A stretch of DNA of 64,000 nucleotides from an uncultured Hoeflea sp. (GTDB lineage: Bacteria > Pseudomonadota > Alphaproteobacteria > Rhizobiales > Rhizobiaceae): NCBI RefSeq assembly GCF_947501405.1, contig NZ_CANMVK010000001.1, positions 1,116,001 through 1,180,000 on the forward strand, in the 5' to 3' direction. The notes beneath the pieces were generated by a model. It saw nothing but the letters and a program-made list of their open reading frames with translations, made no database searches and was not told the DNA's origin. Of this stretch, positions 13,199 through 29,273 are shown piece by piece (the stretch's first letter is position 1; each line of letters begins with the position of its first letter). Both the position numbers and the translations under genes were made by a program.

Positions 13199-13969
13199 TC
13201 AAGAGGCCTCGGCCTGCGGCAACATGAGTGACAATCCGAGCGCCTCGAGGCGCTCGACAATCTGCGGATCGGGCTTGGCGTCGCAGATAACGCCGCGGGC
13301 TTTCGCCATGGGTTTCCAGCGCAGTGGCGCGCTGCGGCCGAATTTGGTTTGGTCGGCCAGGAAATAGGCGTCCATCGAGGCGGCGATCATGGCACGGCGC
13401 AACGCCAGGCCCGAACCGCTGAAGTCGGTCAGGCCATGAGCCGCGCTCAGGCCACCCAGGCTGACAAAGGCCAGATCGGCGGTATGGCCGTTCATCATGT
13501 CGATAGCGTCGGGTCCGCCGAGCGTGCGTTCCGTAGGGTCGAGTTTGCCTCCGAGCAGCGTCACCTGTGCGACCGGGGTCAGTTCCAGCGCAATGGCGAT
13601 GTCGTTGGTCCACACCTTGAGACCGGTTCGGATGCGCAATTGCCGCGCCAGCTCCAGCGTGGTCGAGCCTGAATCGAGGATCACCCGTGCGCCGTCGGGC
13701 ACCAGATCCAGCGCTCGTTCGGCAATCAGCGCCTTGCCTTCGGGGTTGGCGGTCAGCCGCTCGGCCAATTCGGGTTCCTTGATGCCGATCGCTACCGCAC
13801 CGCCGCGTACCAGCCGCAGCAGTTTGCGGTTGGCCAGGTGCGCCAGATCGTTGCGAATGGTCTCCCTCGTTACATCGAAAAGGGCTGCGAGCTCGGTGGT
13901 GCGGGCGCCCGAATGGTGCTCGAGATGCGCAAGAATCAGCGCGTGCCGCCGGACAGGAAGTTCGGCCAT
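13199..13969 (-). CDS. DeoR/GlpR family transcriptional regulator
   Basis: A 256-residue regulator. An N-terminal winged helix (ILAHLEHHSGARTTELAALFDVTRETIRNDLAHL) is followed by a DeoRC sensor domain with DSGSTTLELARQL and FVSLGGLSAAHGLTDFS. These proteins usually respond to phosphorylated sugars or similar metabolites. The start at 13969 is set by GAGGAG six bases upstream. It is transcribed divergently from the flavoenzyme gene across a 199-bp AT-rich gap, so it may control that gene. It could be either the left edge of the phosphonate island or an unrelated neighbour. Confidence 0.85.
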   Translation of the reverse strand: MAELPVRRHALILAHLEHHSGARTTELAALFDVTRETIRNDLAHLANRKLLRLVRGGAVAIGIKEPELAERLTANPEGKALIAERALDLVPDGARVILDSGSTTLELARQLRIRTGLKVWTNDIAIALELTPVAQVTLLGGKLDPTERTLGGPDAIDMMNGHTADLAFVSLGGLSAAHGLTDFSGSGLALRRAMIAASMDAYFLADQTKFGRSAPLRWKPMAKARGVICDAKPDPQIVERLEALGLSLMLPQAEAS

Positions 13970-14081
13970 GGTTGCTCCTCTTGACCGCCATTGGGCGAGT
14001 CTGTTGCCAATCCTTAGCCGAAAGGCCGGACGGGTGGCAGTGAGATCGACGCCCCGGCGCGGATCGTCACGGGCGACAGAA

Positions 14082-14120
14082 AAACTGATATGCCAATAAA
14101 ATAAAATATTTTCCAAGAAA
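14082..14120 (+). promoter_or_regulatory. Weak fourth copy of the shared island operator, upstream of the flavoenzyme
   Basis: This AT-rich stretch aligns without gaps to the elements at 17500, 19282 and 26843. It shares TGATATG with the 17500 copy and ATAAAATAAA with the 26843 copy, with about 18-19 matches over 30-33 positions. It begins 87 bp before the flavoenzyme ATG. A direct repeat ATGCCAA (14090, 14120) and the palindrome AAAATATTTT (14103-14112) lie in or beside it and could alternatively be a DeoR site. Confidence 0.4.
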
Positions 14121-14168
14121 TGCCAAATCCAAATAGGCTCACTGTGAATTGAGGAGCTTGAAATCATC

Positions 14169-16592
14169 ATGACAATTCCAGACCTTCCACAACATGCCCA
14201 TGTCGTTATCATCGGGGGCGGCGTTATCGGCGCATCGGTGGCTTATCATTTGACCAAGCTTGGCGTCACAGATGTGGTGCTCATCGAACAGGGACAATTG
14301 TCATCGGGCACCACCTGGCATGCGGCCGGGCTGGTGGGGCAATTGCGCAGCCACTCGGTGATGACCTCGCTCATTCAGTACTCGACCCGACTCTACCAGG
14401 ACTTGGCTGCCGAAACCGGACTTGAAACCGGCTGGAAGCAGTGCGGGTCGCTGTCGGTGGCACGCACCGATGAGCGGATGACGCTGCTCAAGCGCACAGT
14501 CGCCTCGGCGCGTTCACAAGGCGTGGAGGTTGAACTGCTGAGCCCGGAGGAGGCGGGCGCGGTGTGGCCGCCGATGGAAACCGGCGACCTCAAGGGCGCG
14601 ATCTGGTTGCCGGGCGACGGCAAAGCCAATCCCACGGATCTCACACAGTCGCTGGCCAAGGGCGCACGAATGGGTGGCGCGCGGGTGATCGAGGGTGTTC
14701 GCGTCACAGGCATTGCCACGCAGGACGGGCGGGTGACAGGGATCGAGACCGACAGGGGCGCGATCTCCGCCGAGATCGTCGTCAACTGCGCGGGACAATG
14801 GGCGCGCAAGATCGGGCAAATGTGCGGCGTGTCCGTGCCGATGCACTCTGCGGAGCATATGTACATCGTCACGGGGAAGGTCGACGGCGTCGATCCCGAT
14901 TTGCCGGTGATGCGCGATCCCGACGGCTACATCTATTTCAAGGAAGAGGTTGGCGGCCTGGCGATGGGCGGGTTCGAGCCTTCGGCCAAGCCCTGGGGCA
15001 TGGACGGCATTCCGGATGATTTCGCGTTCCAGCTTCTTGAAGATGACTGGGACCAGTTCGAAATCCTGATGGAGAACGCGTTGATCCGGGTGCCGGAGCT
15101 GGCGAATGCAGAGGTCAGGAAGTTCTACAACGGCCCCGAAAGCTTTACGCCGGACAACAATTTCCTGCTCGGCGAAGCGCCCGAGTTGAAGAACTTCTAT
15201 GTCGGGGCGGGGTTCAACTCGATGGGCATCGCCAGCGCCGGCGGGGCCGGCAAGGCGTTGGCGGAATGGATCGTCAATGGCGCGCCGACCATGGATCTTT
15301 GGCCGGTCGACATCCGGCGTTTTGCGGGCTTCAACAACAATCCGACCTGGCTGCACGACCGCATCAAGGAGGTGCTGGGTCTGCACTACGCCATGCCGTG
15401 GCCCAATCTGGAACTTGATTCTGCGCGGCCGTTCCGGCGCTCGGCGCTATACTCGACTTTTGATGCCAAGGGCGCTGTCTGGGGCTCCAAGATGGGCTGG
15501 GAGCGGGTCAATTATTTTGCGCCCCAGGGTCAGGAAGCCAGGATCGATTACTCGTTTGGCCGCCAGAACTGGCATGAGGCGGTTGCGGCCGAGCATCATG
15601 CAACGCGCAACAATGTCGCCATGTTCGACCTCAGCTCGTTTTCCAAGCTGATGGTTGAGGGCCGTGATGCGCTTGCCGTGCTTAACCGGATCTGCGCGGC
15701 AAATCTCGATCGTCCGATCGGCTCCTCGGTTTATACCGGACTGTTGAACGCGCGCGGCGGTTATGAAAGCGATCTGACTGTGTTCCGGCTCGGCGCCGAG
15801 CGTTTTATGGTGGTTACCGGCTCTGCGCAGGCGGTGCATGATGCTGACTGGATCCGCAAGAACACGCCTGACGACGCCCATGTCTTTGTCCATGACGTCA
15901 CCAATGCGTGGTCAGTGCTGGCGGTGATGGGGCCGAATTCTCGGGATTTGCTGCAAAAACTGACCCGCGCCGACCTTTCGGAAGAGGGATTCGCCTTTGC
16001 CACAATCAGGGAGATCGACATTGGCTACGCCACGGTGCTTGCCAACCGTATGAGCTATGTCGGTGAGCTGGGCTGGGAGCTGTTCGTGCCAGTGGAGTTC
16101 ACGGTCGGCGTTTACGAGGCGTTGCACGCTGTAGATCCGTCTCTGATCGACGCCGGTTATTATGCGCTTGAAGGCTTGCGCATTGAAAAGGGCTTCCGCG
16201 CCTGGGGGCGGGAGCTGACGCCTGACATCACGCCATTGGAGGCGGGTTTGGGTTTCGCTGTCGACTTCACCAAGCCCGGCGGCTTCATCGGCAAGGAGGC
16301 GTTGGAGGAGGCCCGCGCCCGCGGCGGGCTGCATCAGCGAATCGTGCAGATCAGTCTTGACGATCCTGAGCCGCAATTGTGGGGCGGTGAATTGCTGATG
16401 CGCGATGGCGCGCCGGTGGGCAAGGTGATGTCGGCCGCCCACGGGCACACGCTGGATCGCCCGGTGGCGCTGTGCCGGATCGAGGAGCCGGAGCGGGTGA
16501 TTGACCGCGCCTATCTCACCGAAGGCAGCTTCTCGGTTGATCTGGCGGGCGAGATCCATGCTGCCACGCTGCATCTCAAGCCCGCGGTCTAA
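14169..16592 (+). CDS. FAD-dependent oxidoreductase with GcvT folate domain (dimethylglycine/sarcosine dehydrogenase family)
   Basis: An 807-residue two-part enzyme. Residues 1 to about 430 form a DAO-type flavin amine oxidase with dinucleotide loop GGGVIGAS (16-23). H51 in GTTWHAAGL is the position that carries covalent FAD in dimethylglycine dehydrogenases. From about 440 to the end is a GcvT-like aminomethyltransferase domain with its C-terminal barrel (EGLRIEKGFRAWGREL, then GFIGKEAL). Family enzymes oxidatively demethylate N-methyl amines and pass the carbon to tetrahydrofolate. No glycine betaine genes are nearby. Its place beside an AEP operon and the shared promoter element suggest an N-methylated AEP as substrate, which is inference. 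It converges on the LysR gene with 9 bp between stops. Confidence 0.88.
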   Translation: MTIPDLPQHAHVVIIGGGVIGASVAYHLTKLGVTDVVLIEQGQLSSGTTWHAAGLVGQLRSHSVMTSLIQYSTRLYQDLAAETGLETGWKQCGSLSVARTDERMTLLKRTVASARSQGVEVELLSPEEAGAVWPPMETGDLKGAIWLPGDGKANPTDLTQSLAKGARMGGARVIEGVRVTGIATQDGRVTGIETDRGAISAEIVVNCAGQWARKIGQMCGVSVPMHSAEHMYIVTGKVDGVDPDLPVMRDPDGYIYFKEEVGGLAMGGFEPSAKPWGMDGIPDDFAFQLLEDDWDQFEILMENALIRVPELANAEVRKFYNGPESFTPDNNFLLGEAPELKNFYVGAGFNSMGIASAGGAGKALAEWIVNGAPTMDLWPVDIRRFAGFNNNPTWLHDRIKEVLGLHYAMPWPNLELDSARPFRRSALYSTFDAKGAVWGSKMGWERVNYFAPQGQEARIDYSFGRQNWHEAVAAEHHATRNNVAMFDLSSFSKLMVEGRDALAVLNRICAANLDRPIGSSVYTGLLNARGGYESDLTVFRLGAERFMVVTGSAQAVHDADWIRKNTPDDAHVFVHDVTNAWSVLAVMGPNSRDLLQKLTRADLSEEGFAFATIREIDIGYATVLANRMSYVGELGWELFVPVEFTVGVYEALHAVDPSLIDAGYYALEGLRIEKGFRAWGRELTPDITPLEAGLGFAVDFTKPGGFIGKEALEEARARGGLHQRIVQISLDDPEPQLWGGELLMRDGAPVGKVMSAAHGHTLDRPVALCRIEEPERVIDRAYLTEGSFSVDLAGEIHAATLHLKPAV

Positions 16593-16601
16593 CCGCGGGC
16601 G

Positions 16602-17477
16602 TCAGTTGGCGGCGGTTTGGCTGCGCGCAATCTCCAGAAAGGCGTTGACCAGCTTGCCGCCGCGGCGTTCGCGCAGACAGATCAGCGTCTCCTGCATCAT
16701 CATGTTTTCCTCGCCCTCAAGCGGGATCCGCACCAGTCGCGGATCCTCTCCGAATTCGGCCGTCGACACGAAGCCGACGCCAATGCCGGAGGCGACGATT
16801 TCGCGTACCGCCTCACGCCCCTCGGCGACGATGGCCGGTGAAAACTCATGGCCTGCGGCGCTGGCCGCTTCCTCGAATTTTGTGCGGGTCTTGGAGCCGC
16901 GCTCACGCATGACCAGCGGCAGCTCCTTGAGATCGTTGAAGGTAAGGCGGCCGCGGCTGGCAATCGGATGGCCGGCGGCGACGAAGGCCGCAATCGGGGT
17001 GGCGTTGAGCAGGATGGTTTCGAACTCGCGTCCCTGCGGGATTTCGCCAAGCACCCCGATATCGGCTTCATAGCTGAACAGGTTTTCGATCACGCTTTCA
17101 GAATTGCCGCCGCTGATGGTGACGCCGACGCCGGGGTACTTTTCCTGAAACCGGGCCAGGATCTTGAGCACATGCAGGGCGCTGTCGGCGACGATGCGAA
17201 GGGTGCCTGCGCGCAACACCCGGCTTTCGGACAAGAGCTCGCGCGCCTGGTTTTCATAGTCGAAAAAACGCCGGGTGATCTCCAGCAGACGTTCGCCGGC
17301 CGGCGTCAGCGTAACCTGTTTTTTGTGCCGGTTGAACAGCAGAATATCGTATTCTTCCTCCAGCTTTCGGACCTGGTCGGAGATCGCCGGCTGGGTGAGA
17401 AACAGTTCCTCGGCGGCGCGCGAAAAACCTCCGCTGACCGCGACGTAGTGGAAAGCACGCAATTGAACATAGCGCAT
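16602..17477 (-). CDS. LysR-type regulator, probably of AEP catabolism
   Basis: A 291-residue LysR protein. The N-terminal HTH (VQLRAFHYVAVSGGFSRAAEELFLTQPAISDQVRKLE) is followed by a LysR substrate-binding domain (AGTLRIVADSALHVLKILARFQ). A LysR subfamily associated with aminoethylphosphonate catabolism is known (the phn_lysR group); membership is likely from context but not proven here. The start at 17477 (MRYVQLRAF) fits family length; the upstream extension does not. It is divergent from the Na/Pi-type gene, with the shared 39-bp element between them, the usual arrangement for an autoregulated LysR gene. Confidence 0.87.
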   Translation of the reverse strand: MRYVQLRAFHYVAVSGGFSRAAEELFLTQPAISDQVRKLEEEYDILLFNRHKKQVTLTPAGERLLEITRRFFDYENQARELLSESRVLRAGTLRIVADSALHVLKILARFQEKYPGVGVTISGGNSESVIENLFSYEADIGVLGEIPQGREFETILLNATPIAAFVAAGHPIASRGRLTFNDLKELPLVMRERGSKTRTKFEEAASAAGHEFSPAIVAEGREAVREIVASGIGVGFVSTAEFGEDPRLVRIPLEGEENMMMQETLICLRERRGGKLVNAFLEIARSQTAAN

Positions 17478-17499
17478 CAGTGGGCCTTGATGGTTTGTG

Positions 17500-17538
17500 A
17501 AATTGATATGTGCATCGAAACTAACGATTGGATTTATA
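17500..17538. promoter_or_regulatory. Shared island operator in the LysR / Na-Pi divergent intergenic region
   Basis: Ungapped alignment to the phnW upstream element gives about 25 matches in 37 positions, including the exact 8-mer TAACGATT (17522-17529) and AAATTGATA at the left end. It lies 23 bp from the LysR start codon and 95 bp before the Na/Pi-type start codon. It is a likely LysR binding site, judging from position. Confidence 0.65.
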
Positions 17539-17594
17539 GAAGGCAAGAGTGCTCAATGGTCGTTTGAGTCCGAATCGCCACGCCGGGGAAGCGC

Positions 17595-19262
17595 ATGTTG
17601 CCAGTTGCATTCTTTATCCATCTCGCCGGAGCCATCATGCTGTTGCTGTGGGCGGTGCGAATGGTGCGAACCGGTGTGGAACGGGCTCATGGAACGCGGT
17701 TGAAGTCCGCTCTTCGCGATGCCCGCGGCGGCAATGCCCAGATGGCGGTGGCGGGCACGGTGCTGGCGGTGGTGCTGCAGAGCTCAACCGCAGTCGGTGT
17801 TCTGGCGGCGGGATTCGCCACCAGCGGGATTTTGACCGTCAATGCGGGAATCGCGGCGCTGCTGGGCGCCGATCTCGGTTCGGCGCTGGTGGTCAAGATC
17901 CTGTCATTCGATCTCAGCGGCTTCATTCCGCTGCTGCTTCTGGTGGGAGCGGCGCTGTTTTTGAAATTCGAGGCCCGCACCGTGCGCCAGACCGGCCGCA
18001 TCGTGCTTGGCATCGCCTTTATTCTGCTGTCGCTCAAGATGGTGGGCGAAGCCACCGAGCCGCTGCGTGACAGCGCGATACTGCCGGGGCTGATCGGCTA
18101 CCTGAAAGATGATCCGCTGACCGCCTTTCTTGTGGCGGCGGCGATTGCCTGGCTGGTGCATTCCTCCGTGGCGACGGTTTTGTTGTTTGTCACCTTCGCG
18201 GCCCGCGACCTGCTGCCGCTCGAAGTGGCGCTGCCGATGGTACTCGGCGCCAATGTCGGCGGCGGGCTGATCGCGGTCTGGCTTACCCGCGGGATGGAGA
18301 TCGAGGCGCGGCGCATCCCTCTGGGAAACCTGATTTTTCGTGGGACCGGCGCCATCGCGGGATTGACGGCGCTGCAGTTTTTCGATGTTCCGATCCATTA
18401 CCTGGGGCAGGGCGAGGCGGTGCAGCTGGTGAATTTTCACCTGGCTTTCAATCTCGTTTTGGTGGTGCTGACCATTCCCCTGGTGCGCCCGATGGAGCGG
18501 CTGACCGCTGTGCTGCTGCCCATCCCGGCAAGTGCTCCCGATCCGATCGGGGCCGATCCGCTGGAAGTCAGCACACTTGATCGCGGTTCCACCGACCGAC
18601 CGAATGTGGCGCTCGCAAGCGCCAAGCGTGAGCTCTTGCGCATGGGCGAAACGGTGGCTGCGATGTACCGGCCGGTAATGGAAATGATGGATGGCGGTAA
18701 TCTCGAGCAGATCGCGCGGGTGCGCAAGATCGACGAGCAGGTCAACCGCAAGCACACTGACATCAAGCTGTTCATTGCCGAGGTCAATCGCGGCAAGCTG
18801 TCGGAGGACGAGATCCGCGAGGGCATGGATCTGACCGAGTTTTCGATCAATCTCGAACATATCGGCGACATCATCGCCAAGAACCTGCTGGCGCTGGCTG
18901 CCGAGCGTGCCCGCAAGAAGCTGCGGTTTTCGCCGGAAGGGTGGGCCGAGATGTGCAATCTGCACGCCCGGGTGGAGACCAACATGCAATTGGCGCTCAA
19001 CGTGCTGATCTCAGGCGACATCGAGAGCGCGCGGCAGTTGGTGGGTGAAAAGGAAGCCATGCGACAACTGGCCCGCGACAGCAACGACCGGCATCTCGAG
19101 CGGCTGCGCGAAGGCCATGCCGACAGCATTGAAACCAGCGATATTCATCTTGAAACCGTGCGCGCCTTCAAGGAGATCAACTCGCTGCTGGTCACCGTCG
19201 CCTATCCGATTTTGACCGAAAGCGGCCAGCTGTTGCGCAGCCGTCTGGCGCAACTTGACTGA
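17595..19262 (+). CDS. Na/Pi cotransporter-like protein with PhoU-like C-terminus
   Basis: A 555-residue membrane protein of the Na/Pi cotransporter II (NptA/YjbB) family. Eight or so hydrophobic segments fill residues 1-310. The first repeat carries the family motif QSSTA (62-66) and the second repeat has the partner SSVAT preceded by His instead of Gln. Residues about 335-550 form a PhoU-like helical domain (LTEFSINLEHIGDIIAKNLLALA). Bacterial members such as YjbB have been linked to phosphate export. Next to enzymes that release phosphate from AEP, a safety-valve role is plausible but inferred. It is divergent from the LysR gene. Confidence 0.88.
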   Translation: MLPVAFFIHLAGAIMLLLWAVRMVRTGVERAHGTRLKSALRDARGGNAQMAVAGTVLAVVLQSSTAVGVLAAGFATSGILTVNAGIAALLGADLGSALVVKILSFDLSGFIPLLLLVGAALFLKFEARTVRQTGRIVLGIAFILLSLKMVGEATEPLRDSAILPGLIGYLKDDPLTAFLVAAAIAWLVHSSVATVLLFVTFAARDLLPLEVALPMVLGANVGGGLIAVWLTRGMEIEARRIPLGNLIFRGTGAIAGLTALQFFDVPIHYLGQGEAVQLVNFHLAFNLVLVVLTIPLVRPMERLTAVLLPIPASAPDPIGADPLEVSTLDRGSTDRPNVALASAKRELLRMGETVAAMYRPVMEMMDGGNLEQIARVRKIDEQVNRKHTDIKLFIAEVNRGKLSEDEIREGMDLTEFSINLEHIGDIIAKNLLALAAERARKKLRFSPEGWAEMCNLHARVETNMQLALNVLISGDIESARQLVGEKEAMRQLARDSNDRHLERLREGHADSIETSDIHLETVRAFKEINSLLVTVAYPILTESGQLLRSRLAQLD

Positions 19263-19281
19263 TCGACGAAAATTGAAAGCA

Positions 19282-19320
19282 AAATCGATACACGGATACA
19301 AAATAACGATTTTACATATA
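19282..19320 (+). promoter_or_regulatory. Shared island operator upstream of phnW
   Basis: This is the clearest copy. It matches the element before the AEP importer at 27 of 39 positions without gaps, with AAATCG and GATTTTAC at identical 26-bp spacing. It also shows a dyad AAAATCG-N19-CGATTTT (19281-19313). It starts 95 bp before the phnW ATG, in a 114-bp AT-rich gap after the Na/Pi-type gene, so phnW has its own promoter. Confidence 0.7.
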
Positions 19321-19376
19321 TCTGGATCGATGGAAAAACCAATGCGAAGCCGATGATCCGAACGCAGGGAAATTCG

Positions 19377-20567
19377 ATGTCGATGGTTCAAACAGACAGT
19401 TTCGCCGACCCGGAAATGGGGGAACCCTTTCTGCTCACGCCGGGCCCTTTGACCACTGCTTTCAGCGTCAAACAGGCGATGCTGCGCGACTGGGGCTCCT
19501 GGGACGGCGATTTCCGCGCCATGACGAAATCCATGTGCGATCAACTGGTTGTCATGGCCGGTGACACTAGGAGCGAATTCGTCTGCGTGCCGATGCAGGG
19601 ATCGGGAAGCTACTGCGTGGAAGCGCTTTTGGGAACCTTCGTGCCGCGCGACGGCAAGGTGCTGGTGCTGGCCAACGGCGCTTACGGGCTGCGGGCGGCG
19701 GAGACCATGCGCTATCTTGGCCGGGCGTTCACGCTGATCGACAAGGGCGACTACATGCCGCCTCGGGGCGACGAGGTGGCTGCGGCGCTGGATGCTGATC
19801 CGGCCATCACGCACGTCATTGCAATTCACTGCGAAACCTCCTCGGGCATCCTCAATCCAATCGACGAAATCTCGCAAGTTACCTATGCCCGCGGCCGCAA
19901 ATTGCTGGTCGACAGCATGAGCGCCTTTGGCGCCATCGAACTGGATGTGGAAAAGACCCGCTATGAGGCAATGGTCTCTTCTGCCAACAAATGCATCGAA
20001 GGCGTGCCGGGCTTCGGTTTCGTCATCGCGCGAAAATCCGAACTGGAATCCTGCAAGGGCAACAGCCATTCGCTGAGCCTTGATATCCATGCGCAATGGG
20101 CCAATCTGGTCAAGACCGGACAGTGGCGCTACACGCCGCCGACCCATGTGGTCGCAGCCTTCATCGAGGCATTGCGCATGCATGCCCGGGAGGGCGGCGT
20201 CGAGGCGCGGGGCGCGCGCTACACCCGCAACCGCGATGTGATGGTGGCGGGCATGCGCGAATTGGGTTTTGAAACCCTGCTCAAGGACCGCTGGCTGTCG
20301 CCGATCATAGTGACGTTTTTCTGCCCTGCGCATCGCAATTTCGTGTTTTCGACCTTCTATGAGCTGATGAAGGCCAAGGGCTTCATCATTTATCCAGGCA
20401 AGCTGACCGTGGTTGAAAGTTTCCGCGTCGGCTGCATCGGCCGGATGGATGAGCACATCATGCGCCGCGTGGTTGAGGCCGCTGGCGAATGCCTTGAGGA
20501 AATGGACGTCGACACCGCGGCCCCTCCCGCCGAAGCCATTGCCGAACGCGCAAAACTCGCCGCCTGA
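19377..20567 (+). CDS. phnW: 2-Aminoethylphosphonate-pyruvate aminotransferase
   Basis: A 396-residue fold-type I PLP enzyme that transfers the amino group of AEP to pyruvate, giving phosphonoacetaldehyde and alanine. Visible landmarks are LLTPGPLTT near the N-terminus, the cofactor-binding D179 in VDSMSAFGAIELD, and K205, the PLP Schiff-base lysine, in SSANKCIEGVPGF. IYPGKL and FRVGCIGR occur near the end. The start at 19377 has AGGGA seven bases upstream. It is the first gene of a phnW-phnA-phnY operon; the spacing to phnA is 33 bp. Confidence 0.95.
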   Translation: MSMVQTDSFADPEMGEPFLLTPGPLTTAFSVKQAMLRDWGSWDGDFRAMTKSMCDQLVVMAGDTRSEFVCVPMQGSGSYCVEALLGTFVPRDGKVLVLANGAYGLRAAETMRYLGRAFTLIDKGDYMPPRGDEVAAALDADPAITHVIAIHCETSSGILNPIDEISQVTYARGRKLLVDSMSAFGAIELDVEKTRYEAMVSSANKCIEGVPGFGFVIARKSELESCKGNSHSLSLDIHAQWANLVKTGQWRYTPPTHVVAAFIEALRMHAREGGVEARGARYTRNRDVMVAGMRELGFETLLKDRWLSPIIVTFFCPAHRNFVFSTFYELMKAKGFIIYPGKLTVVESFRVGCIGRMDEHIMRRVVEAAGECLEEMDVDTAAPPAEAIAERAKLAA

Positions 20568-20600
20568 GGCGGCATGCATTCCCCAACAAAAGGACACGAG

Positions 20601-21851
20601 ATGACAACTTCCTCCCACGCCCCCGTCTCGGCGAACGACCGCAGCTATCCCTGGCCCAAGGTTCCGGCGATTGCGATCTGCCTGGACGGCTGTGAGCCGG
20701 AATATCTGACAAAGGCGATCGAGGCAGGGTTGATGCCGACGCTCGAGCGGATCCGCGAGAACGGCACCGACCGGTTGGCGCATTCGGTGATCCCGAGCTT
20801 TACCAATCCCAACAATCTGTCGATCGCCACCGGACGCCCGCCGATCGTGCACGGGATCTGCGGCAATTATCTCTACGATCCCGACACCGGCGAAGAGGTG
20901 ATGATGAACGACGTGCGCTTCCTGCGCGCGCCGACGCTGTTCTCCAAATTCTATGAAGCCGGCGCGCGGGTGGCGATCGTCACCGCCAAGGACAAGCTGC
21001 GCGCTCTCCTGGGCGCCGGGCTGAAATTCGACGAGGATCGCGCCAAGTGTTTTTCGGCCGAAAAATCGGACAGCTCCACCGCCGCCGAACACGGTCAGGA
21101 TGCAGCGTCCAAATGGCTGGGCATGGCGCAGCCGGACGTGTATTCGGCGGAACTGTCGGAGTTTGTGTTTGCCGCCGGCGTCAAGCTTCTTAAGGAATGG
21201 AAGCCGGATGTGATGTATCTGACCACAACCGACTATGTTCAGCATAAATATGCACCGGACCAGCCCGAAGCCCAGAGTTTTTACGAGATGTTCGACAAAT
21301 ATCTCACCCAACTCGATGCCATGGGCGCGGCGATCGTGGTGACCGCCGATCACGGCATGAAGCCCAAACATCTAGCCGACGGCTCTCCTTCGGTTGTTTA
21401 TGTGCAGGATATGCTTGATGAATGGCTGGGCGAGGCTGCGGCGCGGCTGATCCTGCCGATCACCGACCCTTACGTGGTTCACCATGGAGCGCTCGGGTCG
21501 TTTGCCACCGCCTATCTTCCCAAGGGCGCTGATCAGGCCGACATTGCTGCCAGGCTTATGGCCGTCGACGGCATTACCCATGTGCTGACCAAGGCCGAGG
21601 CGATTGAGCGGTTCGAGCTTCCGGGCGACCGGATTGGCGATCTTGTTCTGGTCTCGGGTGAAAATGTCACCATCGGCACATCTGAACACCGGCATGATCT
21701 TGCCGCACTCAATGAGCCCCTGCGTAGCCATGGCGGGCTGACCGAACAGGAAGTACCGTTTATCGTCAATCGCGTTCTGGATCTGCCTGGCCAACCCGAG
21801 CTGCGCAATTTCGACGCCTTCTTCTATGCCACCACCGCGGCGGCGCTCTGA
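20601..21851 (+). CDS. phnA: Phosphonoacetate hydrolase
   Basis: A 416-residue alkaline-phosphatase-superfamily enzyme that cleaves the C-P bond of phosphonoacetate to acetate and phosphate, using two zinc ions. The catalytic set falls at the numbering I recall for the Sinorhizobium meliloti enzyme: D29, nucleophile T68 (PSFTNPNN), D211 and H215 (TTTDYVQHK), D250 and H251 (TADHGMKPK) and H377 (RSHGG). Nothing appears broken. The start at 20601 follows AAAGGAC. It is 12 bp before phnY. This hydrolase route is used here instead of phosphonatase PhnX, which I do not see. Confidence 0.96.
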   Translation: MTTSSHAPVSANDRSYPWPKVPAIAICLDGCEPEYLTKAIEAGLMPTLERIRENGTDRLAHSVIPSFTNPNNLSIATGRPPIVHGICGNYLYDPDTGEEVMMNDVRFLRAPTLFSKFYEAGARVAIVTAKDKLRALLGAGLKFDEDRAKCFSAEKSDSSTAAEHGQDAASKWLGMAQPDVYSAELSEFVFAAGVKLLKEWKPDVMYLTTTDYVQHKYAPDQPEAQSFYEMFDKYLTQLDAMGAAIVVTADHGMKPKHLADGSPSVVYVQDMLDEWLGEAAARLILPITDPYVVHHGALGSFATAYLPKGADQADIAARLMAVDGITHVLTKAEAIERFELPGDRIGDLVLVSGENVTIGTSEHRHDLAALNEPLRSHGGLTEQEVPFIVNRVLDLPGQPELRNFDAFFYATTAAAL

Positions 21852-21863
21852 AAGGACATTGTC

Positions 21864-23345
21864 ATGAACGCCAGCCCCCCGAATTTCGATCCGCGAAGCC
21901 GCAGCCGCGAAATCCGCCACGAAGGCATGCGGATCGGCGGCGAGGCCGTATTCACCGATGAGGTGGTGGAGGTGCATTACCCCTACACCGACGAGGTGAT
22001 CGGCACGGTTCCCGCCGGCAAGGCCGAACATGCGCGTCGCGCCTTCGCAATCGCCGCCGCCTACAAGCCGAAGCTCTCGCGCTATGAGCGGCAGCAGATC
22101 CTGTTTCGCGCAGGTGAGCTGATCCGGGAAAAGCGCGAGGAACTGGCCTACTGGCTGGTGCTGGAACTCGGCATCTGCTGGCAGCATGCGCTCTATGAGA
22201 CCGGCCGCGCCTATGATGTGTTCACGCTTGCCGGGCAGATGGCGATTCTCGACGACGGCCAGATTTTTTCCTGCGATCTGACGCCTCAGGGCAAGGAACG
22301 CAAGATCTTCACCTTGCGTGAACCGGTGCGGGCAATTTCGGCGATCACCCCGTTCAATCATCCGCTCAACATGGTCAGCCACAAGATCGCGCCGGCGATC
22401 GCCACCAACAATTGCGTGGTGTGCAAGCCGACTGAACTGACGCCGCTGACGGCGATTGCGCTGGCCGACATCCTCTACGAGGCGGGTTTGCCCCATGAGA
22501 TGTTCCAGGTGGTGACCGGCTGGCCCAAGGATATCGGTGACGAGATGATCACCAATCCCGACATCGATATCATCACCTTTACCGGCGGAGTTCCGGTCGG
22601 CAAGATGATCGCCTCGAAGGCCGGCTACAAGCGCTGCGCGCTGGAGCTTGGCGGCAATGATCCGCTGATCATTCTCAACGATCTGTCCGACGCCGATCTC
22701 GACAAGGCTGCGACCATAGCGGTGGCAGGCGCGACCGGCAATTCCGGCCAGCGCTGCACGGCGGTCAAGCGCATACTGGTGCAGGAGAGCGTGGCCGACC
22801 GGTTCGTCCCGCTGGTGCTCGAGAAAGCCAAGAAGCTCAAATTCGGTGATCCGATGGATCCCGAAACCCAGCTTGGTTGCGTGGTGCATGCGCAAGCAGC
22901 CGAAACATTCGAGCGCCGGGTTCACGACGCGGAGGCCCAGGGCGCCAAGATCCTCTATCATCCCGGCCGCCAGGGCGCGCTGCTGCCGCCGATCGTGGTC
23001 GACCACGTGCCGCACGGCTCGGAACTGGTGATGGAAGAGACATTTGGCCCCATCGTGCCCATCGTGCGGGTGCCCGACGATGACGCCGAGGTGATGGCGA
23101 TATCCAATTCGACCGAGTTCGGACTGTCGTCTGGTGTGTGCACCAATGATCTCAACCGGGCGATAGCCTTCGTCAACGGGCTCGACGTGGGCACCTGCAA
23201 CATCTGGGAACAGCCCGGCTACCGCATCGAGATGTCGCCCTTTGGCGGCATTAAGGACAGCGGTAATGCGGTCAAGGAAGGGGTGCTGGAGGCGATGAAG
23301 TTCTTCACCAACGTCAAGACCTATTCGCTGCCGTGGCCGCGCTGA
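21864..23345 (+). CDS. phnY: Phosphonoacetaldehyde dehydrogenase
   Basis: A 493-residue aldehyde dehydrogenase that oxidises phosphonoacetaldehyde to phosphonoacetate with NAD+, linking PhnW to PhnA. Catalytic C298 is in [12 protein letters not shown] and the general base E261 is in [15 protein letters not shown] and [10 protein letters not shown] are typical of the family. The start at 21864 has AAAGGAC upstream. The assignment to PhnY rather than another aldehyde dehydrogenase rests on position between phnA and the terminator and on the S. meliloti-like phnWAY order. It ends 24 bp before an intrinsic terminator. Confidence 0.93.
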
Positions 23346-23368
23346 GGCGGCCGATTGACAAACGTTCT

Positions 23369-23395
23369 GGCGCGGCCCCGTGGCCGCGCCTTTTT
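23369..23395 (+). terminator. Strong intrinsic terminator after phnY
   Basis: GGCGCGGCC (23369-23377), loop CCGT, GGCCGCGCC (23382-23390), then TTTTT. A perfect 9-bp GC stem with U5 closes the phnWAY unit before the PbfA-like gene. Confidence 0.88.
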
Positions 23396-23439
23396 CCGTT
23401 GAAGCTTGGCATGCCGGGGTCCGGAGCAAGGGGCGCGAG

Positions 23440-24792
23440 ATGAAAATCACCCACACCGAAGGCGAATCCAACACTTCGGCCGCCCGTCAGGCCTGGGCCG
23501 CCAAACATCCCGATGCGGCGACACGAGACCTGCTCAAGCGCGACGCCGACGCCTTTTTGCACCAAAGCCTGTCGAGCCCTTGCGTTTCCACCATCGCCAA
23601 GGCCGAGGGCATCTGGATCGAGGACACCGCTGGCCGGCGTTACATGGATTTTCACGGCAATTCGGTCCACCACATCGGCTACGGCCATCCACGGCTGGTG
23701 GCCGCCATCAAGGATCAACTGGATCAATTGCCCTTCGCGCCGCGCCGCTTCACCAACGAGCCCGCCGTGGCGTTGGCTGAAAAGCTGGGCCGGATTGCGC
23801 CCGGCGATCTCGACAAGGTGCTGTTTACCACCGGTGGCTCCGACGCCAACGAGGTGGCGCTGAAGATCGCCCGCGCCGCCACCGGGCGGTTCAAGACGGT
23901 GTCGTTCTGGGACGCCTTTCACGGGGCGGGGCTGGGTTCGGCGAGCGTTGGCGGGGAAGCGACTTTCCGCTCGCATATTGCGGGGCCTCTGATTCCCGGC
24001 ACTGAGCATGTGGCGCCCTTTGCCTGCTACCGTTGCCCCTATAATCATTCCGGCCCCGATGTCTGCGGGCTCGCCTGCGCCAATATGGTCGACTACGTGC
24101 TGGGCCGGGAAGGCGACGTGGCTGCAGTGATCGCCGAACCGATGCGGGCGGTGCCCACCGTGCCGCCGCCGGGTTTCTGGAAGGCGGTGCGCGAGGCCTG
24201 CAACCGCCATGGCGCGCTGCTGATCATGGACGAAATCCCGACCGGTCTGGGCAAGACCGGCCGCATGTTCGCCTTCGAGCACGACGACGTGGTTCCCGAT
24301 ATCGTCACGCTGGGCAAATCGCTGGGCGGCGGCATTCTGCCGATCGCGGCGGTGGTGGCGCGGCATGATCTCGACGTGTGCGGGGAGTTCGCCATCGGCC
24401 ATTACACCCACGAGAAAAACCCGGTGACCGCGCGCGCGGCGCTGACCACGCTGGAAATCATCGAGGATGAAGGCCTGGTGGAACGATCTGCCGCACTCGG
24501 TGCCCACGCTATGGACCGTCTGCGCGAGTTCGCGCCGAAAAGTGCGCATGTCGGAGACGTGAGGGGCAGGGGGCTGATATTCGGGGTCGAGATTGTCGAG
24601 GACCGGGACAGCAAACAGGAGGGACGCGAGCGCGCCGAGCGGATCTACTACCGCTGTCTCGAAGCCGGGCTGAGTTTCAAGATCAGTGCCGGTTGCGTGC
24701 TCACATTGTCGCCACCACTGACCATCAGCCGCGAGGAGCTCGACCGGGCGCTCGACATCGTCACAGGCGCTATCATCGCGGAGGCACGCTAA
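23440..24792 (+). CDS. pbfA: PbfA-like (R)-1-hydroxy-2-aminoethylphosphonate ammonia-lyase (class III PLP enzyme)
   Basis: A 450-residue protein with the class III aminotransferase fold. It has TTGGSDANEVALKIAR, D264 in MDEIPTGLGKTGRMFAFE, and PLP lysine K293 in TLGKSLGGG. Proteins of this kind next to phnW or phnWAY were shown to be PbfA, a lyase that eliminates ammonia from hydroxy-AEP to give phosphonoacetaldehyde rather than transaminate. The location directly after phnY supports this call, but sequence alone cannot exclude a true aminotransferase. A cysteine cluster C196-x2-C199-x9-C209-x3-C213 stands out. The start at 23440 has AAGGGG upstream. The next gene follows after 2 bp. Confidence 0.8.
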   Translation: MKITHTEGESNTSAARQAWAAKHPDAATRDLLKRDADAFLHQSLSSPCVSTIAKAEGIWIEDTAGRRYMDFHGNSVHHIGYGHPRLVAAIKDQLDQLPFAPRRFTNEPAVALAEKLGRIAPGDLDKVLFTTGGSDANEVALKIARAATGRFKTVSFWDAFHGAGLGSASVGGEATFRSHIAGPLIPGTEHVAPFACYRCPYNHSGPDVCGLACANMVDYVLGREGDVAAVIAEPMRAVPTVPPPGFWKAVREACNRHGALLIMDEIPTGLGKTGRMFAFEHDDVVPDIVTLGKSLGGGILPIAAVVARHDLDVCGEFAIGHYTHEKNPVTARAALTTLEIIEDEGLVERSAALGAHAMDRLREFAPKSAHVGDVRGRGLIFGVEIVEDRDSKQEGRERAERIYYRCLEAGLSFKISAGCVLTLSPPLTISREELDRALDIVTGAIIAEAR

Positions 24793-24794
24793 AC

Positions 24795-25805
24795 ATGAAG
24801 ATCGTACGAACCGATTGCGAACTGCAAACACCCGTCGTCGACGCCAGATTGCGCGAGCAGGGCCATGAGCTTGTGCTCTTGCCTGACGGGGTGCCGGAGG
24901 CACAATTGACGGAGGCGGTGCGCGACGCCGATCTTCTTTTGATGTGCTACACGCCGATCACCAGGCCGGTGCTGGAAGCGGCGAGCCGTTTGAAGGGCAT
25001 CGTCAAATACGGGGTTGGTATCGATGCGATTGACATCCTGGCAGCGATCGAGCGCGGCATCCCGGTCGTCAACATTCCCGAATATGCCGAGGAGACCGTG
25101 GCTGAGGGCGCTTTTGCGCTTTTGATCGCGCTTGCCAAGAAGTTGCAGCCCTTGAGCCGGGCCATGCAGAAGGATGGCTGGGTGTGGCCGGAGCGGCAGT
25201 GGCTGGGTTCCGACATTTCAGGCAAAACTCTCGGTATTGTCGGGTTTGGCAAAATCGGCCAGAGCGTGGCGCGAATGGCGGGTGCGGGCTTCAGGGCCAA
25301 TGTGATTGCTTACAATCCGGGCAAATCGGACGCTGAAATTGCCGCGGCCGGGGCCACCAAGCGCGATGATCTTCACCAGTTGCTTGCCGAAAGCGATTTC
25401 GTGTCGCTGCACTGCACATTGAATGAAAGCACCTACGGGATGATCGGCGAGGCGGAGCTTCAAGCCATGAAGCCGTCCGCGCTCCTGATCAACACATCTC
25501 GCGGCGCGCTGGTGGATCAGGACGCTCTTGTGCGGGCGCTCGAGGAGGGATGGATCGCCGGCGCCGGGTTGGATGTGTTTTCGAACGAGCCGCTTGCCCG
25601 CAGCGGGCACCCGATGAGCCGCCTGTTCGATCTCGATCAGGTGATCATCACGCCGCATCTGACCTTCTACACCCACGAAGCCATGCACCGCCTGGAGCTT
25701 GAGACGCTGGAGCGATGCGCGGAGATGCTGTCGGGCCGGCCAACGCTGGTCAAATCCCACGACCCGCGATTGAGAGCCCAGAAGAACGGAGTGATCTTTG
25801 CGTAA
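24795..25805 (+). CDS. D-2-hydroxyacid dehydrogenase of unknown substrate
   Basis: A 336-residue NAD(P)-dependent dehydrogenase of the phosphoglycerate dehydrogenase/CtBP family. The Rossmann loop is GIVGFGKIGQ (147-156) and the catalytic triad is R236 (NTSRGALVD), E265 (FSNEPL) and H288 (TPHLT). The residue that usually is Asp at the end of the second Rossmann strand is N174 (IAYNPGKS), which may relax NAD preference. It begins 2 bp after the PbfA-like gene and is certainly co-translated with it. A substrate such as a phosphonated hydroxy- or ketoacid is plausible but unproven. Confidence 0.85.
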   Translation: MKIVRTDCELQTPVVDARLREQGHELVLLPDGVPEAQLTEAVRDADLLLMCYTPITRPVLEAASRLKGIVKYGVGIDAIDILAAIERGIPVVNIPEYAEETVAEGAFALLIALAKKLQPLSRAMQKDGWVWPERQWLGSDISGKTLGIVGFGKIGQSVARMAGAGFRANVIAYNPGKSDAEIAAAGATKRDDLHQLLAESDFVSLHCTLNESTYGMIGEAELQAMKPSALLINTSRGALVDQDALVRALEEGWIAGAGLDVFSNEPLARSGHPMSRLFDLDQVIITPHLTFYTHEAMHRLELETLERCAEMLSGRPTLVKSHDPRLRAQKNGVIFA

Positions 25806-25919
25806 CCGAAACCTGCTGCGAACGCGCAACGCCCGGGCGAAGCCGTGCCTGCCGTGCGGCACATGCGATTACCTGAGAACACTTGAACTGCGTTTGGCTC
25901 CATTTCAGCCCAACCTCCA

Positions 25920-26828
25920 ATGCGGCTTCGCAAGGCCAGTGGCCTCGGCAACGGCCGCCCCGAGCGGATTTCTGCGCGGATTTCTGCCTTGAGCCTGTTT
26001 GCCCTGAGCATCGTGTTGTTTTCGGCGTTTTTGCACGCCGGCTGGAATGCGATGCTCAAGTCAGTCACCGACCGTGCCGCGGTGCTTGGCGCGGTGGCTG
26101 CGATCACCGCGCTGGCGGGCGTGGCGCTGATCAGCGTTTCACCGATCCCGGCGGCGGCAAGCTGGCCGGCCTTGTTCATTTCCACGGTCGTCCATTACGC
26201 CTACTATCTCTTGTTGTTTAGGGCTTACCGCTACGGTGATTTGAGTCAGGTCTATCCGATTTCGCGAGGGCTCGCGCCGGCGCTGGTGGCGTTGTCGGCT
26301 TTTGTGCTCTTGGGCGAGAGCCTGGGGCCGCTGGGCTGGGCTGGGCTGGCAACCATCAGTCTGGGAATTTGCATCCTTGCCATGCAGCGCGGGCCGATCC
26401 AGGCCTCTGGCCAGACCATCATGGTGGCGCTGCTTCTGGGGCTTTGCATCGGAACCTATTCGGTGGCCGATGGTATCGGGGTGCGCAGCGCCGGCACGCT
26501 GACGGGCTATATGGGCTGGCTGTTCCTGCTCGAGGCGCCGGTGCCGCTGGCGATTGTTCTCAAGCGCCGGAGGGACAGGGGACGATTTGAATCCCGCGCC
26601 TTGGTACTCGGCGCGCTGGGTGGGCTGGCGGCGGTAACGGCTTACGGGCTGGTGCTTTACGTCAAGACCATCGCCCCTTTGGGAGCGGTGTCAGCCGTGC
26701 GTGAATCAAGTGTGGTTATCGCCGCGCTGATCGGGTTGGTGTTCTTTGGCGAGCGGCCTTGGCTGGGGCGTTTGGTGGCGGCCGCAATCGTGGCTGGCGG
26801 TGTTGTGACGCTTGCGCTTTCGGGTTGA
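25920..26828 (+). CDS. EamA-family (DMT) transporter
   Basis: About 302 residues with ten hydrophobic segments arranged as two EamA repeats. GESLGPLGWAGLATISLGI closes the first half and FFGERPWLGRLVAAAIVAGGV the second. DMT transporters usually export amino acids or small metabolites. Position at the end of the pbfA-dehydrogenase unit suggests export or uptake of a phosphonate or by-product. The start is uncertain: ATG at 25920 is used, but a TTG at 25989 (LSLFALSIVL) would give a more typical N-terminus. Confidence 0.8.
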   Translation: MRLRKASGLGNGRPERISARISALSLFALSIVLFSAFLHAGWNAMLKSVTDRAAVLGAVAAITALAGVALISVSPIPAAASWPALFISTVVHYAYYLLLFRAYRYGDLSQVYPISRGLAPALVALSAFVLLGESLGPLGWAGLATISLGICILAMQRGPIQASGQTIMVALLLGLCIGTYSVADGIGVRSAGTLTGYMGWLFLLEAPVPLAIVLKRRRDRGRFESRALVLGALGGLAAVTAYGLVLYVKTIAPLGAVSAVRESSVVIAALIGLVFFGERPWLGRLVAAAIVAGGVVTLALSG

Positions 26829-26842
26829 TCAAAATACGAGAG

Positions 26843-26881
26843 AAATCGTTGCAATCATAAAATAAATAGATTTTACTTATT
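26843..26881 (+). promoter_or_regulatory. Shared island operator upstream of the AEP ABC importer
   Basis: Matches the phnW element at 27 of 39 positions in the same register (AAATCG ... GATTTTACnTAT). It is located just after the EamA stop and 205 bp before the binding-protein ATG, so the importer has a long leader and its own regulated promoter. Confidence 0.68.
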
Positions 26882-27047: not shown

Positions 27048-28070
27048 ATGACAAAATTGAAAAGCCTTTATCTCGGGGTCGCAATCTCCGCGTTTTGCAC
27101 CACCATGGCGCTGGCCGAGACCGAACTGACCGTTTACACCGCCGTCGAGGCCGAGGACCTGGCGCGTTACGCGGAAACCTTCAATCAGGATCATCCGGAC
27201 ATCAAGATCAACTGGGTGCGCGATTCCACTGGAGTGATCACCGCCAAGCTTCTGGCTGAAAAGAACAATCCGCAGGCCGATGTGGTTTGGGGCCTGGCTG
27301 CAACATCGCTTCTGGTGCTCAAGACCGAAGGCATGCTCGAGCCTTATGAGCCCTCTGGCCTCGACAAGCTCGATCCCAAGTTCCGCGACAGCGACACCCC
27401 GCCATCCTGGGTGGGTATGGACGCCTGGGTGGCCTCGGTGTGCTACAACACGGTGGAAGGCGACAAGCTCGGCCTGACCGCACCGGCAAGCTGGATGGAC
27501 CTGACCAAGCCCGAATATGCCGGTCATGTGGTGATGCCGAACCCGGCCTCGTCAGGCACCGGCTTTCTCGACGTCTCGTCCTGGCTGCAGATCTTCGGTG
27601 AGGAAAAAGGCTGGGAGTACATGGATGCGCTGCATGAGAACATCGCGGCCTATACCCACTCCGGCTCCAAGCCCTGCAAGATGGCCGCGTCCGGCGAGAC
27701 GGTGATCGGCGTTTCCTTCGCGTTCCGCGGCGCCAAGTCCAAGGCCGCCGGAGCTCCGCTGGAGATCGTGGTGCCGACTGAAGGCATCGGCTGGGACATG
27801 GAAGCCTCGGCAATCATGGCGGGTACTGCCAATGAAGAGGCGGCCAAGACGCTTCTCGACTGGTCGATCACGTCCAAGGCCATGGAAATGTACAACACCG
27901 GTTACGCCGTTGTCGCGATCCCGGGCATTGCCAAGCCCGTGGAGCATTTCCCCGAAGGCATCACCGACGCGATGATCGACAATGATTTCGAGTGGGCTGC
28001 AAACAACCGTTCGGCTATTCTGGAGGAATGGACCAAGCGGTACGACACCAAGTCCGAGCCAAAGGGCTAA
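27048..28070 (+). CDS. AEP ABC transporter periplasmic binding protein (PhnS2/AepX-like)
   Basis: A 340-residue extracellular solute-binding protein of the iron/AEP type-2 fold. The Sec signal peptide (MTKLKSLYLGVAISAFCTTMA) is probably cleaved after ALA at residue 23. The mature protein begins ETELTVYTAVEAEDL and contains the pattern ADVVWGLAATSLL. Together with the following ATPase and double-length permease it matches the putative AEP importer families (PhnS2-T2-U2, also described as AepXVW). AAGGGGA (27037-27043) precedes the ATG at 27048, fixing the start within a longer open frame. Confidence 0.88.
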   Translation: MTKLKSLYLGVAISAFCTTMALAETELTVYTAVEAEDLARYAETFNQDHPDIKINWVRDSTGVITAKLLAEKNNPQADVVWGLAATSLLVLKTEGMLEPYEPSGLDKLDPKFRDSDTPPSWVGMDAWVASVCYNTVEGDKLGLTAPASWMDLTKPEYAGHVVMPNPASSGTGFLDVSSWLQIFGEEKGWEYMDALHENIAAYTHSGSKPCKMAASGETVIGVSFAFRGAKSKAAGAPLEIVVPTEGIGWDMEASAIMAGTANEEAAKTLLDWSITSKAMEMYNTGYAVVAIPGIAKPVEHFPEGITDAMIDNDFEWAANNRSAILEEWTKRYDTKSEPKG

Positions 28071-28140: not shown

Positions 28141-29271
28141 ATGATGATGACTTCAGCACACTCTGGCGGGGCGTCCAGCGCTCCGGCCGACGCAACCTCG
28201 TATCTGCAGATCAAGGGCCTATGGAAGGCCTTCGGCGAGTTTCTGGCGCTCAAGGACATTGACCTGGAAATTGCAGCGGGCGAGTTCATCTGCTTTCTCG
28301 GGCCGTCGGGCTGCGGCAAGACCACCCTGCTGCGCGCCATCGCCGGGCTCGATCCGCAGACCCGGGGCGAGATTCACCAGGGCGGCGCCCACATTTCCTC
28401 GCTGCCGCCGTCGGGTCGCGACTATGGCATCGTGTTTCAGTCCTATGCGCTGTTTCCCAATCTGACTGTGGCCCGCAACATCGCCTTCGGGCTTGAGAAC
28501 ACCGGCCGGCCCAAGCCTGAGATCGAAGCTCGCGTCAAGGAACTGCTGGAGCTCGTCGGGCTTCCCGAGCAGGCCGACAAGTACCCCGCACAGCTTTCCG
28601 GCGGTCAGCAGCAGCGCATCGCGCTGGCCCGCGCTATTGCGATCAATCCCGGCCTGTTGCTGCTTGATGAGCCCCTGTCGGCGCTGGATGCGAAGGTGCG
28701 TGTTCATTTGCGTCACGAAATCAAGGAATTGCAGCGCAAACTTGGAGTTACCACCATCATGGTGACCCATGACCAGGAAGAGGCGCTGGCGATGGCTGAC
28801 CGGATCGTGGTCATGAACCACGGCACGGTGGAACAGGTGGGCACGCCCACCGAGATCTACCGCCATCCCGCTTCGCTGTTCGTTGCCGATTTCATCGGCG
28901 AGACCAACAAGGTGCCGTCTGTCTATCGCAGCGGCAAGGTCAGCATTGGCGATTTTGCGCTGTCGACGGATGTCGAGGGGATCGCCGATGGTACGGATGT
29001 GAACGTTGCCGTGCGTCCCGAAGACGTGGTGCCGCACCGGGTCGAGGACGCGGCCACGGGGCTCGTCAATCTGCTGCCGGCCAGCATTTCAGACATGGAG
29101 TTTCTGGGCTCGTTCTGGCGTTGCCATTTGCGCAGTCCGGTGTTGGGGGACACGCCGTTTGTGGCGAATTTCTCGGTCAACGCGGTGCGTCGGCTGGGGC
29201 TTGAGACGGGAATGGACATGGCGGTCGAACTGCCGGCCGAACGCGTTCTCGTGTTTCCGGGAGGGGCGTGA
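28141..29271 (+). CDS. AEP ABC transporter ATP-binding protein (PhnT2-like)
   Basis: A 376-residue ABC ATPase of the spermidine/iron importer type. It has Walker A GPSGCGKT (54-61), Q-loop FQSYALFPNLTV, signature LSGGQQQRIALARA, Walker B LLLLDEPLSALD, and a TOBE domain in the last 110 residues (AVRPEDVV ... PAERVLVFPGG). It energises AEP uptake with the neighbouring permease. Three consecutive ATG codons (28141, 28144, 28147) could each start it. Its stop overlaps the ribosome binding region of the permease gene. Confidence 0.9.
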   Translation: MMMTSAHSGGASSAPADATSYLQIKGLWKAFGEFLALKDIDLEIAAGEFICFLGPSGCGKTTLLRAIAGLDPQTRGEIHQGGAHISSLPPSGRDYGIVFQSYALFPNLTVARNIAFGLENTGRPKPEIEARVKELLELVGLPEQADKYPAQLSGGQQQRIALARAIAINPGLLLLDEPLSALDAKVRVHLRHEIKELQRKLGVTTIMVTHDQEEALAMADRIVVMNHGTVEQVGTPTEIYRHPASLFVADFIGETNKVPSVYRSGKVSIGDFALSTDVEGIADGTDVNVAVRPEDVVPHRVEDAATGLVNLLPASISDMEFLGSFWRCHLRSPVLGDTPFVANFSVNAVRRLGLETGMDMAVELPAERVLVFPGGA

Positions 29272-29273
29272 GG

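Follow-up and report, generated by a model that had tools for sequence, protein, structure and literature searches.

Putative operators of the LysR-type regulator AepR at three promoters of a 2-aminoethylphosphonate island in Hoeflea

What ties together the separate gene units of the phosphonate island that lies in a 64,000-nucleotide stretch of DNA from an uncultured Hoeflea sp. (contig NZ_CANMVK010000001.1, positions 1,116,001 to 1,180,000; hereafter the window)? A sequence-only reading of this DNA had described one 39-bp operator-like element in four intergenic gaps: at 17500, between a lysR gene and a divergent sodium/phosphate (Na/Pi) cotransporter gene; at 19282, before phnW; at 26843, before the genes of an ATP-binding cassette (ABC) importer that begin with aepX; and, in a weaker copy, at 14082, before a flavoenzyme gene. 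It took the element to be bound by the local LysR protein and the four units to form one regulon, and it named shuffled intergenic DNA, a matrix scan and related loci as the means of checking this. We find a conserved core at three of the four promoters, and we propose that these three sites are very probably operators of AepR, the local LysR-type regulator, in a regulon for the natural phosphonate 2-aminoethylphosphonate (2-AEP). The flavoenzyme gene, in contrast, is probably a separately controlled unit outside the reach of this operator.

A conserved core at three promoters

The 39-mers that start at 17500, 19282 and 26843 exist in the form described and need no gaps to be aligned. Those at 19282 and 26843 agree at 27 of 39 positions, exactly the figure given earlier, and the likeness of the 17500 and 19282 copies is borne out with a somewhat different count (27 of 39, where about 25 of 37 had been reported). 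The remaining pair, 17500 and 26843, agrees at 21 of 39. To within one base, these registers are the best among all 39-bp registers between the gaps. In 500 dinucleotide-preserving shuffles of the same gaps, 27 identities were never reached for either of the first two pairs, and the three-pair sum of 76 was likewise never reached (shuffled 60.2 +/- 2.1). Chance likeness of AT-rich intergenic DNA is the obvious alternative, given that the gaps are 52-63% A+T and that the third pair (best 22, p 0.11) and the fourth copy are each non-significant alone. The shuffles for two pairs, the top three ranks in the matrix scan and the conservation across genera described below nevertheless refute chance for the three sites, and we give it next to no credence.

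Orthologous loci define which part of the element matters. A LysR query against a collection with one genome per species returned 57 loci, of which 41 (L009-L049; LysR 45-87% identical) were used; L050-L065 (16 of the 57) were left out as distant LysR genes, and L001-L008 were not used. Read directly, the gaps before phnW, aepX and the Na/Pi gene of these loci hold one common element. A Gibbs sampler that was never shown the window and was forced to place one site per gap settled on it in 41/41 phnW, 21/21 aepX and 14/18 Na/Pi gaps. In the four Na/Pi gaps without the element (L039, L046, L047, L048), the Na/Pi gene is not directly divergent from lysR; two of the 14 Na/Pi sites are weak (L035, L036), and there the Na/Pi gene adjoins another LysR gene. 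The sampler's row for the Na/Pi gap of L048 is not a site and was dropped from the identity and T-N11-A counts and before construction of the model R1 (below). The class consensus sequences are ATACAAAATAACGATTTTACATAT for phnW, ATCGAAACTAACGATTTGNNTTAT for Na/Pi-lysR and ATAAGATAAATAGATTTTACTTAT for aepX.

What is conserved is the right-hand part of the 39-mer, 24 bp that we call the core, together with a short TTAT/CGAT-like piece some 8 bp further left. Mean pairwise identity among 29 phnW gaps is 79% in the core and 32-37% in the outer flanks; the 15 bp left of the core stand at 48% because of the conserved TTAT/CGAT-like piece. Sites of one promoter class agree at about 19 of 24 positions across genera, and sites of different classes in one genome at 14-17. 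The AAATCG at the left edge, to which the sequence-only reading had drawn attention, is indeed shared by the 19282 and 26843 copies, but it is not kept in relatives. For the same reason an inverted repeat AAAATCG-N19-CGATTTT at 19281-19313, whose left arm is not conserved in relatives, was rejected as the operator. A direct-repeat search of the window did not place the element among the 20 largest direct families.

The element stays in place through changes of gene order. The phnW operator is kept where the flavoenzyme gene lies between phnY and pbfA (L019) and where phnY-phnA sit beyond lysR (L031). The retrieved stretches of 18/41 loci include an Na/Pi gene; in 12 it stands between lysR and phnW and has its own operator. 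In Pseudorhodobacter ferrugineus (L012, 9566-9997) a gap of about 430 bp separates lysR from phnW, with no Na/Pi gene detected in it; this gap nonetheless holds both the lysR-near element (read by eye) and the phnW element. Two Stappia loci (L046 and L047, of species other than S. stellulata) carry sites before aepX and phnW.

A matrix built from 70 sites of other loci, with the nearest (L009-L011) excluded and one dubious row (the Na/Pi gap of L048) included, was scanned over both window strands (127,954 positions). It ranks the three window cores first to third: 37.5 for phnW, 36.1 for the importer and 27.1 for lysR/Na-Pi, with 17.2 for the next separate place and 14.7 and 12.0 for further unrelated ones. 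The sequence-only model R1, built from 57 sites, none from the window, was applied to the window without filters and scores them at 29.5, 23.2 and 14.0 bits in the same order (E 5e-8, 5e-6 and 0.004) and the next unrelated place at 7.2 bits. Over the whole genome, the phnW site is the best R1 match (E 4e-6) and the aepX site the second (E 3.5e-4); a place at C1:557847 (E 7.2) was judged chance.

The core also has the form expected of its proposed ligand. T-N11-A is the usual signature of LysR-type sites, and it appears here as the dyad ATNN-N7-NNAT. All three window copies have T-N11-A, as do 73/76 sites overall (phnW 40/41, Na/Pi 13/14, aepX 20/21), and the first 15 bp of the lysR/Na-Pi core form a perfect half-site pair, ATCG-N7-CGAT. 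Among 30 non-redundant sites, dyad symmetry exceeds column permutation both at the T-N11-A centre (p 0.003) and across all 24 bp (p 0.002). When the classes are taken separately, whole-core symmetry is most marked in aepX sites (p 0.0015) and falls short of significance in Na/Pi sites (p 0.06). The cores end 57 bp before the starts of the Na/Pi gene and of phnW (at 19377) and 167 bp before that of aepX, and lysR starts 36 bp from the near edge of the lysR/Na-Pi core.

The tie between the site and AepR

The LysR protein of the island, with HTH_1 (PF00126) and LysR_substrate (PF03466) domains, is the sole match to TIGR03339 above cut-off in the 4.45-Mb genome; the published name for regulators of this type is AepR. 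We scanned 151 genomes of the family, Hoeflea's own included, with R1, and counted a TIGR03339 match of at least 315 bits as a strong AepR. A phnW or strong AepR gene is found no more than 16 kb from each of the 36 R1 matches at E<=0.001 and from 49/55 at E<=0.01. A strong AepR occurs in 29 genomes, every one of which has phnW. Of these, 27 have an R1 match, against 0/6 of the phnW genomes without a strong AepR (Fisher p 1.7e-5), and an unfiltered search reveals a site in each of the two unmatched ones (18.2 and 15.8 bits). In G074, strong AepR genes occur on two contigs, one on each, and both have an operator upstream (C40:118069-118103 and C1:446220-446253).

The six phnW genomes without a strong AepR were also viewed unfiltered. 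For four of them (G001, G007, G008, G045), in which TIGR03339 has no match at 1e-70, R1 finds nothing at E<=1 before phnW. In the other two (G065, G150), where a more distant AepR adjoins phnW, the lysR-phnW gap carries an altered site, ATTG-N7-CAAT followed by TTTACATAT, which scores 14.8 and 12.5 bits, respectively; a second phnW of G065 has a place of 2.8 bits at most.

These data bear on the alternative that the element is another regulator's site or a bare promoter element, linked to AepR through shared clusters alone. Its right-hand ACATAT or ACTTAT could serve as a -10 box, and a promoter scan found weak sigma-70-like matches on the minus strand over two sites (19336-19309 and 26897-26870), although the same scan led us to reject a plain sigma-70 promoter as the explanation. 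Against this alternative, the genome scan finds no match in the phnW genomes that lack a strong AepR (0/6), and the unfiltered look finds none before phnW in the four that lack a close one; the gap of lysR itself retains the site; and the site is altered where AepR is more distant. Other candidate ligands fare poorly: a relative of the island's DeoR-type regulator was detected in only 8/41 loci (some of them incomplete), the Pho box (consensus CTGTCAT-N4-CTGTCAT) was rejected with a best of 8-9/14 in the four gaps against a window maximum of 11, and an Rfam element was rejected with no match at gathering scores over 13900-27100. We consider this alternative improbable. Because the element is conserved at orthologous loci, tracks the LysR gene and not merely phnW, and has the T-N11-A form, an operator of the local LysR protein is the best reading for the three units, as had been suggested from the sequence, with the flavoenzyme unit excluded.

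Several observations weigh against the assignment to AepR and temper our confidence in it. There is some circularity in the positive half of the association, since the training loci were found through a LysR query, and some training species may recur among the 151 genomes and the 29. Sites can also have been missed, as 150/268 candidates were scored in Hoeflea's own genome and 45 per genome in the family. Matches at E 0.0018-0.005 occur in 5/122 genomes without a strong AepR (none at E<=0.001), and G114, a genome with AepR, has one match outside the clusters. The lysR/Na-Pi site, weakest of the three, has an E of only 0.31 genome-wide and ranks behind a place that precedes an OxyR-like gene (E 0.04), and among the training loci the sites of L033, L034, L037, L042 and L043 diverge most. 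Where a distant AepR-like gene lies beside phnW, one locus has a weak site (L109, 8.7 bits) and three have none at E<=1 with unfiltered R1 (L113, L114, L115). In an outgroup family of another class, finally, 4/7 lysR-phnW gaps score 8.7-8.8 bits and 3/7 have no R1 match.

Beyond the family, 7/29 LysR loci from a phylum sample of 398 genomes match R1 at E<=1 with filters, and the other 22 have no match under the same settings. Six loci from other families in which LysR adjoins phnW were searched unfiltered: L112 reaches 15.7 and L117 12.4 bits, and the remaining four are the weak or empty ones listed above (L109, L113, L114, L115). In the outgroup family (G206, G210, G276, G292), a LysR gene, whose product is 48% identical as measured in G206, is divergent from a gene for a major facilitator superfamily (MFS) transporter. 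Scanned in G276, this transporter is of the organophosphate antiporter kind (MFS_1; TIGR00881 208 bits, below cut-off). The LysR-MFS gaps hold a related site at 11.3, 10.0, 16.4 and 12.0 bits in the four genomes, respectively, that of G276 reading ATACGATAAATCGATTTCACTTAT. The gene arrangement is as described for AepP, and these sites fit with the stated close kinship between AepP-associated AepR and alphaproteobacterial AepR (PMC8316502).

The place upstream of the OxyR-like gene (C2:524308-524336, L068) scores 16.8 bits on R1 and was not taken as a member of the regulon. Sites of LysR-family proteins overlap in form, a point that may be relevant to the weak footprint reported for OxyR at Pseudomonas aeruginosa phnW (PMC5720770).

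A different array before the flavoenzyme gene

The fourth copy, at 14082, did not survive these comparisons. The stretch agrees with the three copies at 20, 22 and 19 of 39 positions, and its gap does no better than chance against two of the others (p 0.67 and 0.69). Its best place in the matrix scan scores 9.6, rank 10, beneath unrelated places, and R1 gives 3.6 bits at 14098 (E 10), the last of 8 rows. The view that all four stretches are one operator serving one regulon can draw on 24 of 39 identities with the phnW gap in a different register (14074/19274; p 0.03 uncorrected). Set against the chance-level scores and the different, conserved array that this gap carries, we regard that view as very improbable.

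The 36-bp array consists of the hexamers TGCCAA at 14091, TTCCAA at 14111 and TGCCAA at 14121, a 20 + 10 phasing. It recurs, with 16-18 of 18 letters, in 8/8 divergent deoR/flavoenzyme gaps scored (the window, L013, L046, L047, L136, L145, L146 and L147; only gaps of this divergent kind were scored, and those of L011 and L147, identical in sequence, were counted once), and it was reached by 0/1000 shuffles of each. DeoR-family operators are built of repeated half-sites, and this gap resembles them in its helically spaced hexamer repeats beside a divergent DeoR-type gene; the word TGC(C/A)AA and the 20 + 10 spacing, in contrast, are particular to the deoR/flavoenzyme pair. We propose that the array is probably the operator of the divergent DeoR-type regulator. 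The presence of a conserved, different array in the gap argues that the flavoenzyme gene has an operator of its own. The deoR/flavoenzyme pair travels with some AepR clusters.

Table 1. Features of the phosphonate island and its neighbours (positions in the window).
Feature	Position	Strand	Evidence or sequence
DeoR-family regulator, divergent from flavoenzyme	13199..13969	-	HTH_DeoR and DeoRC above Pfam cut-offs
Operator-like array, deoR/flavoenzyme gap (14003-14168)	14091..14126	+	TGCCAA-N14-TTCCAA-N4-TGCCAA
Flavoenzyme, dimethylglycine/sarcosine dehydrogenase kind	14169..16592	+	Pfam DAO, FAO_M and GCV_T
LysR-type regulator, AepR type	16602..17477	-	TIGR03339 phn_lysR, 346.3 bits (cut-off 341.1)
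Putative AepR operator core, lysR/Na-Pi divergent gap	17514..17537	+	ATCGAAACTAACGATTGGATTTAT
Na/Pi cotransporter, C-terminal PhoU-like part	17595..19262	+	NF037997, 129 bits over cut-off 50
Putative AepR operator core, before phnW	19296..19319	+	ATACAAAATAACGATTTTACATAT
phnW, 2-AEP:pyruvate transaminase	19377..20567	+	TIGR02326, 473 bits over cut-off; alternative start 19353
phnA, phosphonoacetate hydrolase	20601..21851	+	TIGR02335, 506 bits over cut-off; alternative start 20574
phnY, phosphonoacetaldehyde dehydrogenase	21864..23345	+	TIGR03250, 759 bits over cut-off
pbfA, (R)-1-hydroxy-2-AEP ammonia-lyase	23440..24792	+	NF049939, 686 bits over cut-off; alternative start 23380
D-2-hydroxyacid dehydrogenase family protein	24795..25805	+	TIGR01327, 248 bits, below cut-off
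DUF6-type membrane protein of phosphonate clusters	25920..26828	+	TIGR03340, 154.5 bits, below cut-off 288
Putative AepR operator core, before 2-AEP ABC importer	26857..26880	+	ATAAAATAAATAGATTTTACTTAT
aepX (phnS2), 2-AEP binding protein	27048..28070	+	TIGR03261, 523 bits over cut-off
2-AEP ABC transporter ATPase (phnT2)	28141..29271	+	TIGR03265, 512 bits over cut-off
2-AEP ABC transporter permease (phnU2)	29268..31277	+	TIGR03262, 787 bits over cut-off

Proposed operation and significance

From the sites and genes collected in Table 1 we infer how AepR would act. We propose that it binds the approximately 24-bp core holding the T-N11-A dyad, with an extra contact about 8 bp to the left (TTAT/CGAT) and contacts in the right-hand part of the core (ACATAT, ACTTAT or TTTAT). 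With 2-AEP, or a product of 2-AEP, as co-inducer, AepR would then activate three units together: the Na/Pi transporter gene; phnWAY-pbfA with the two genes behind it, which are predicted to belong to the same operon; and aepXVW. From the lysR/Na-Pi core, AepR may also control, and limit, expression of its own gene. Activation is proposed here by analogy with LysR-type activators. It also follows the precedent of Pseudomonas putida, in which the phnWX promoter is much less inducible by 2-AEP once AepR-WX is lost (PMC9311074). In Stappia stellulata grown on 2-AEP, AepX, PhnWAY and PbfA rise together and phosphate is exported, and a LysR-type regulator is the likely switch of 2-AEP mineralisation in Stappia (PMC8316502).

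Regulator, target genes and type of site were all known before; what is added here is a well-supported, specific operator candidate. The island's LysR protein resembles other TIGR03339 regulators (AepR-WX and AepR-P of P. putida BIRD-1, and the LysR protein of Sinorhizobium meliloti phnWAY) in subfamily, target genes and divergent placement. Substrate induction has been shown for the P. putida system (PMC9311074), in which several AepR copies serve scattered operons together with PhoBR, NtrBC and CbrAB, whereas the Hoeflea window has one AepR and three sites in one island. Full-text literature searches, which covered passages and sections of PMC9311074, PMC8316502, PMC10574752, PMC5720770 and PMC5002191 and from whose scope subscription papers, regulon databases and supplements were excluded, found no printed AepR operator.

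As a LysR-type site, the element has well-studied counterparts. BenM and CatM recognize the motif ATAC-N7-GTAT. The corresponding motif of OxyR is ATAG-N7-CTAT (PMC5720770). The sites described here are like these in having T-N11-A, an imperfect dyad and an extended site near divergent promoters; they differ in their less symmetric half-sites (ATAC-N7-CGAT at phnW; the pair at lysR/Na-Pi, ATCG-N7-CGAT, is perfect), in a nearly invariant GATTT half and in flanking contacts of their own.

The three operators are not alike, and across genera the variant typical of each promoter class is retained. On this ground we raise, tentatively and as a doubtful proposal, the idea that the operators are deliberately unequal, giving a graded or ordered response to AepR, and that the Na/Pi transporter is the unnamed exporter of surplus phosphate from 2-AEP. 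The near-palindromic site would then serve the importer, ATAC-N7-CGAT catabolism, and ATCG-N7-CGAT the regulator and the Na/Pi transporter. Taken by itself, the Na/Pi transporter is a candidate phosphate exporter of 2-AEP mineralisers. The PhoU model TIGR02135 gives 29.9 bits, below its cut-off, on residues 340-509 of this protein.

A defined operator makes the regulon readable from sequence in more genomes and specifies the exact bases to mutate. It has been proposed that in the ocean a significant amount of regenerated phosphate comes from mineralisation of 2-AEP (PMC8316502). By tying the Na/Pi transporter to 2-AEP catabolism, the putative AepR operator marks this protein as a candidate for phosphate export during growth on 2-AEP.

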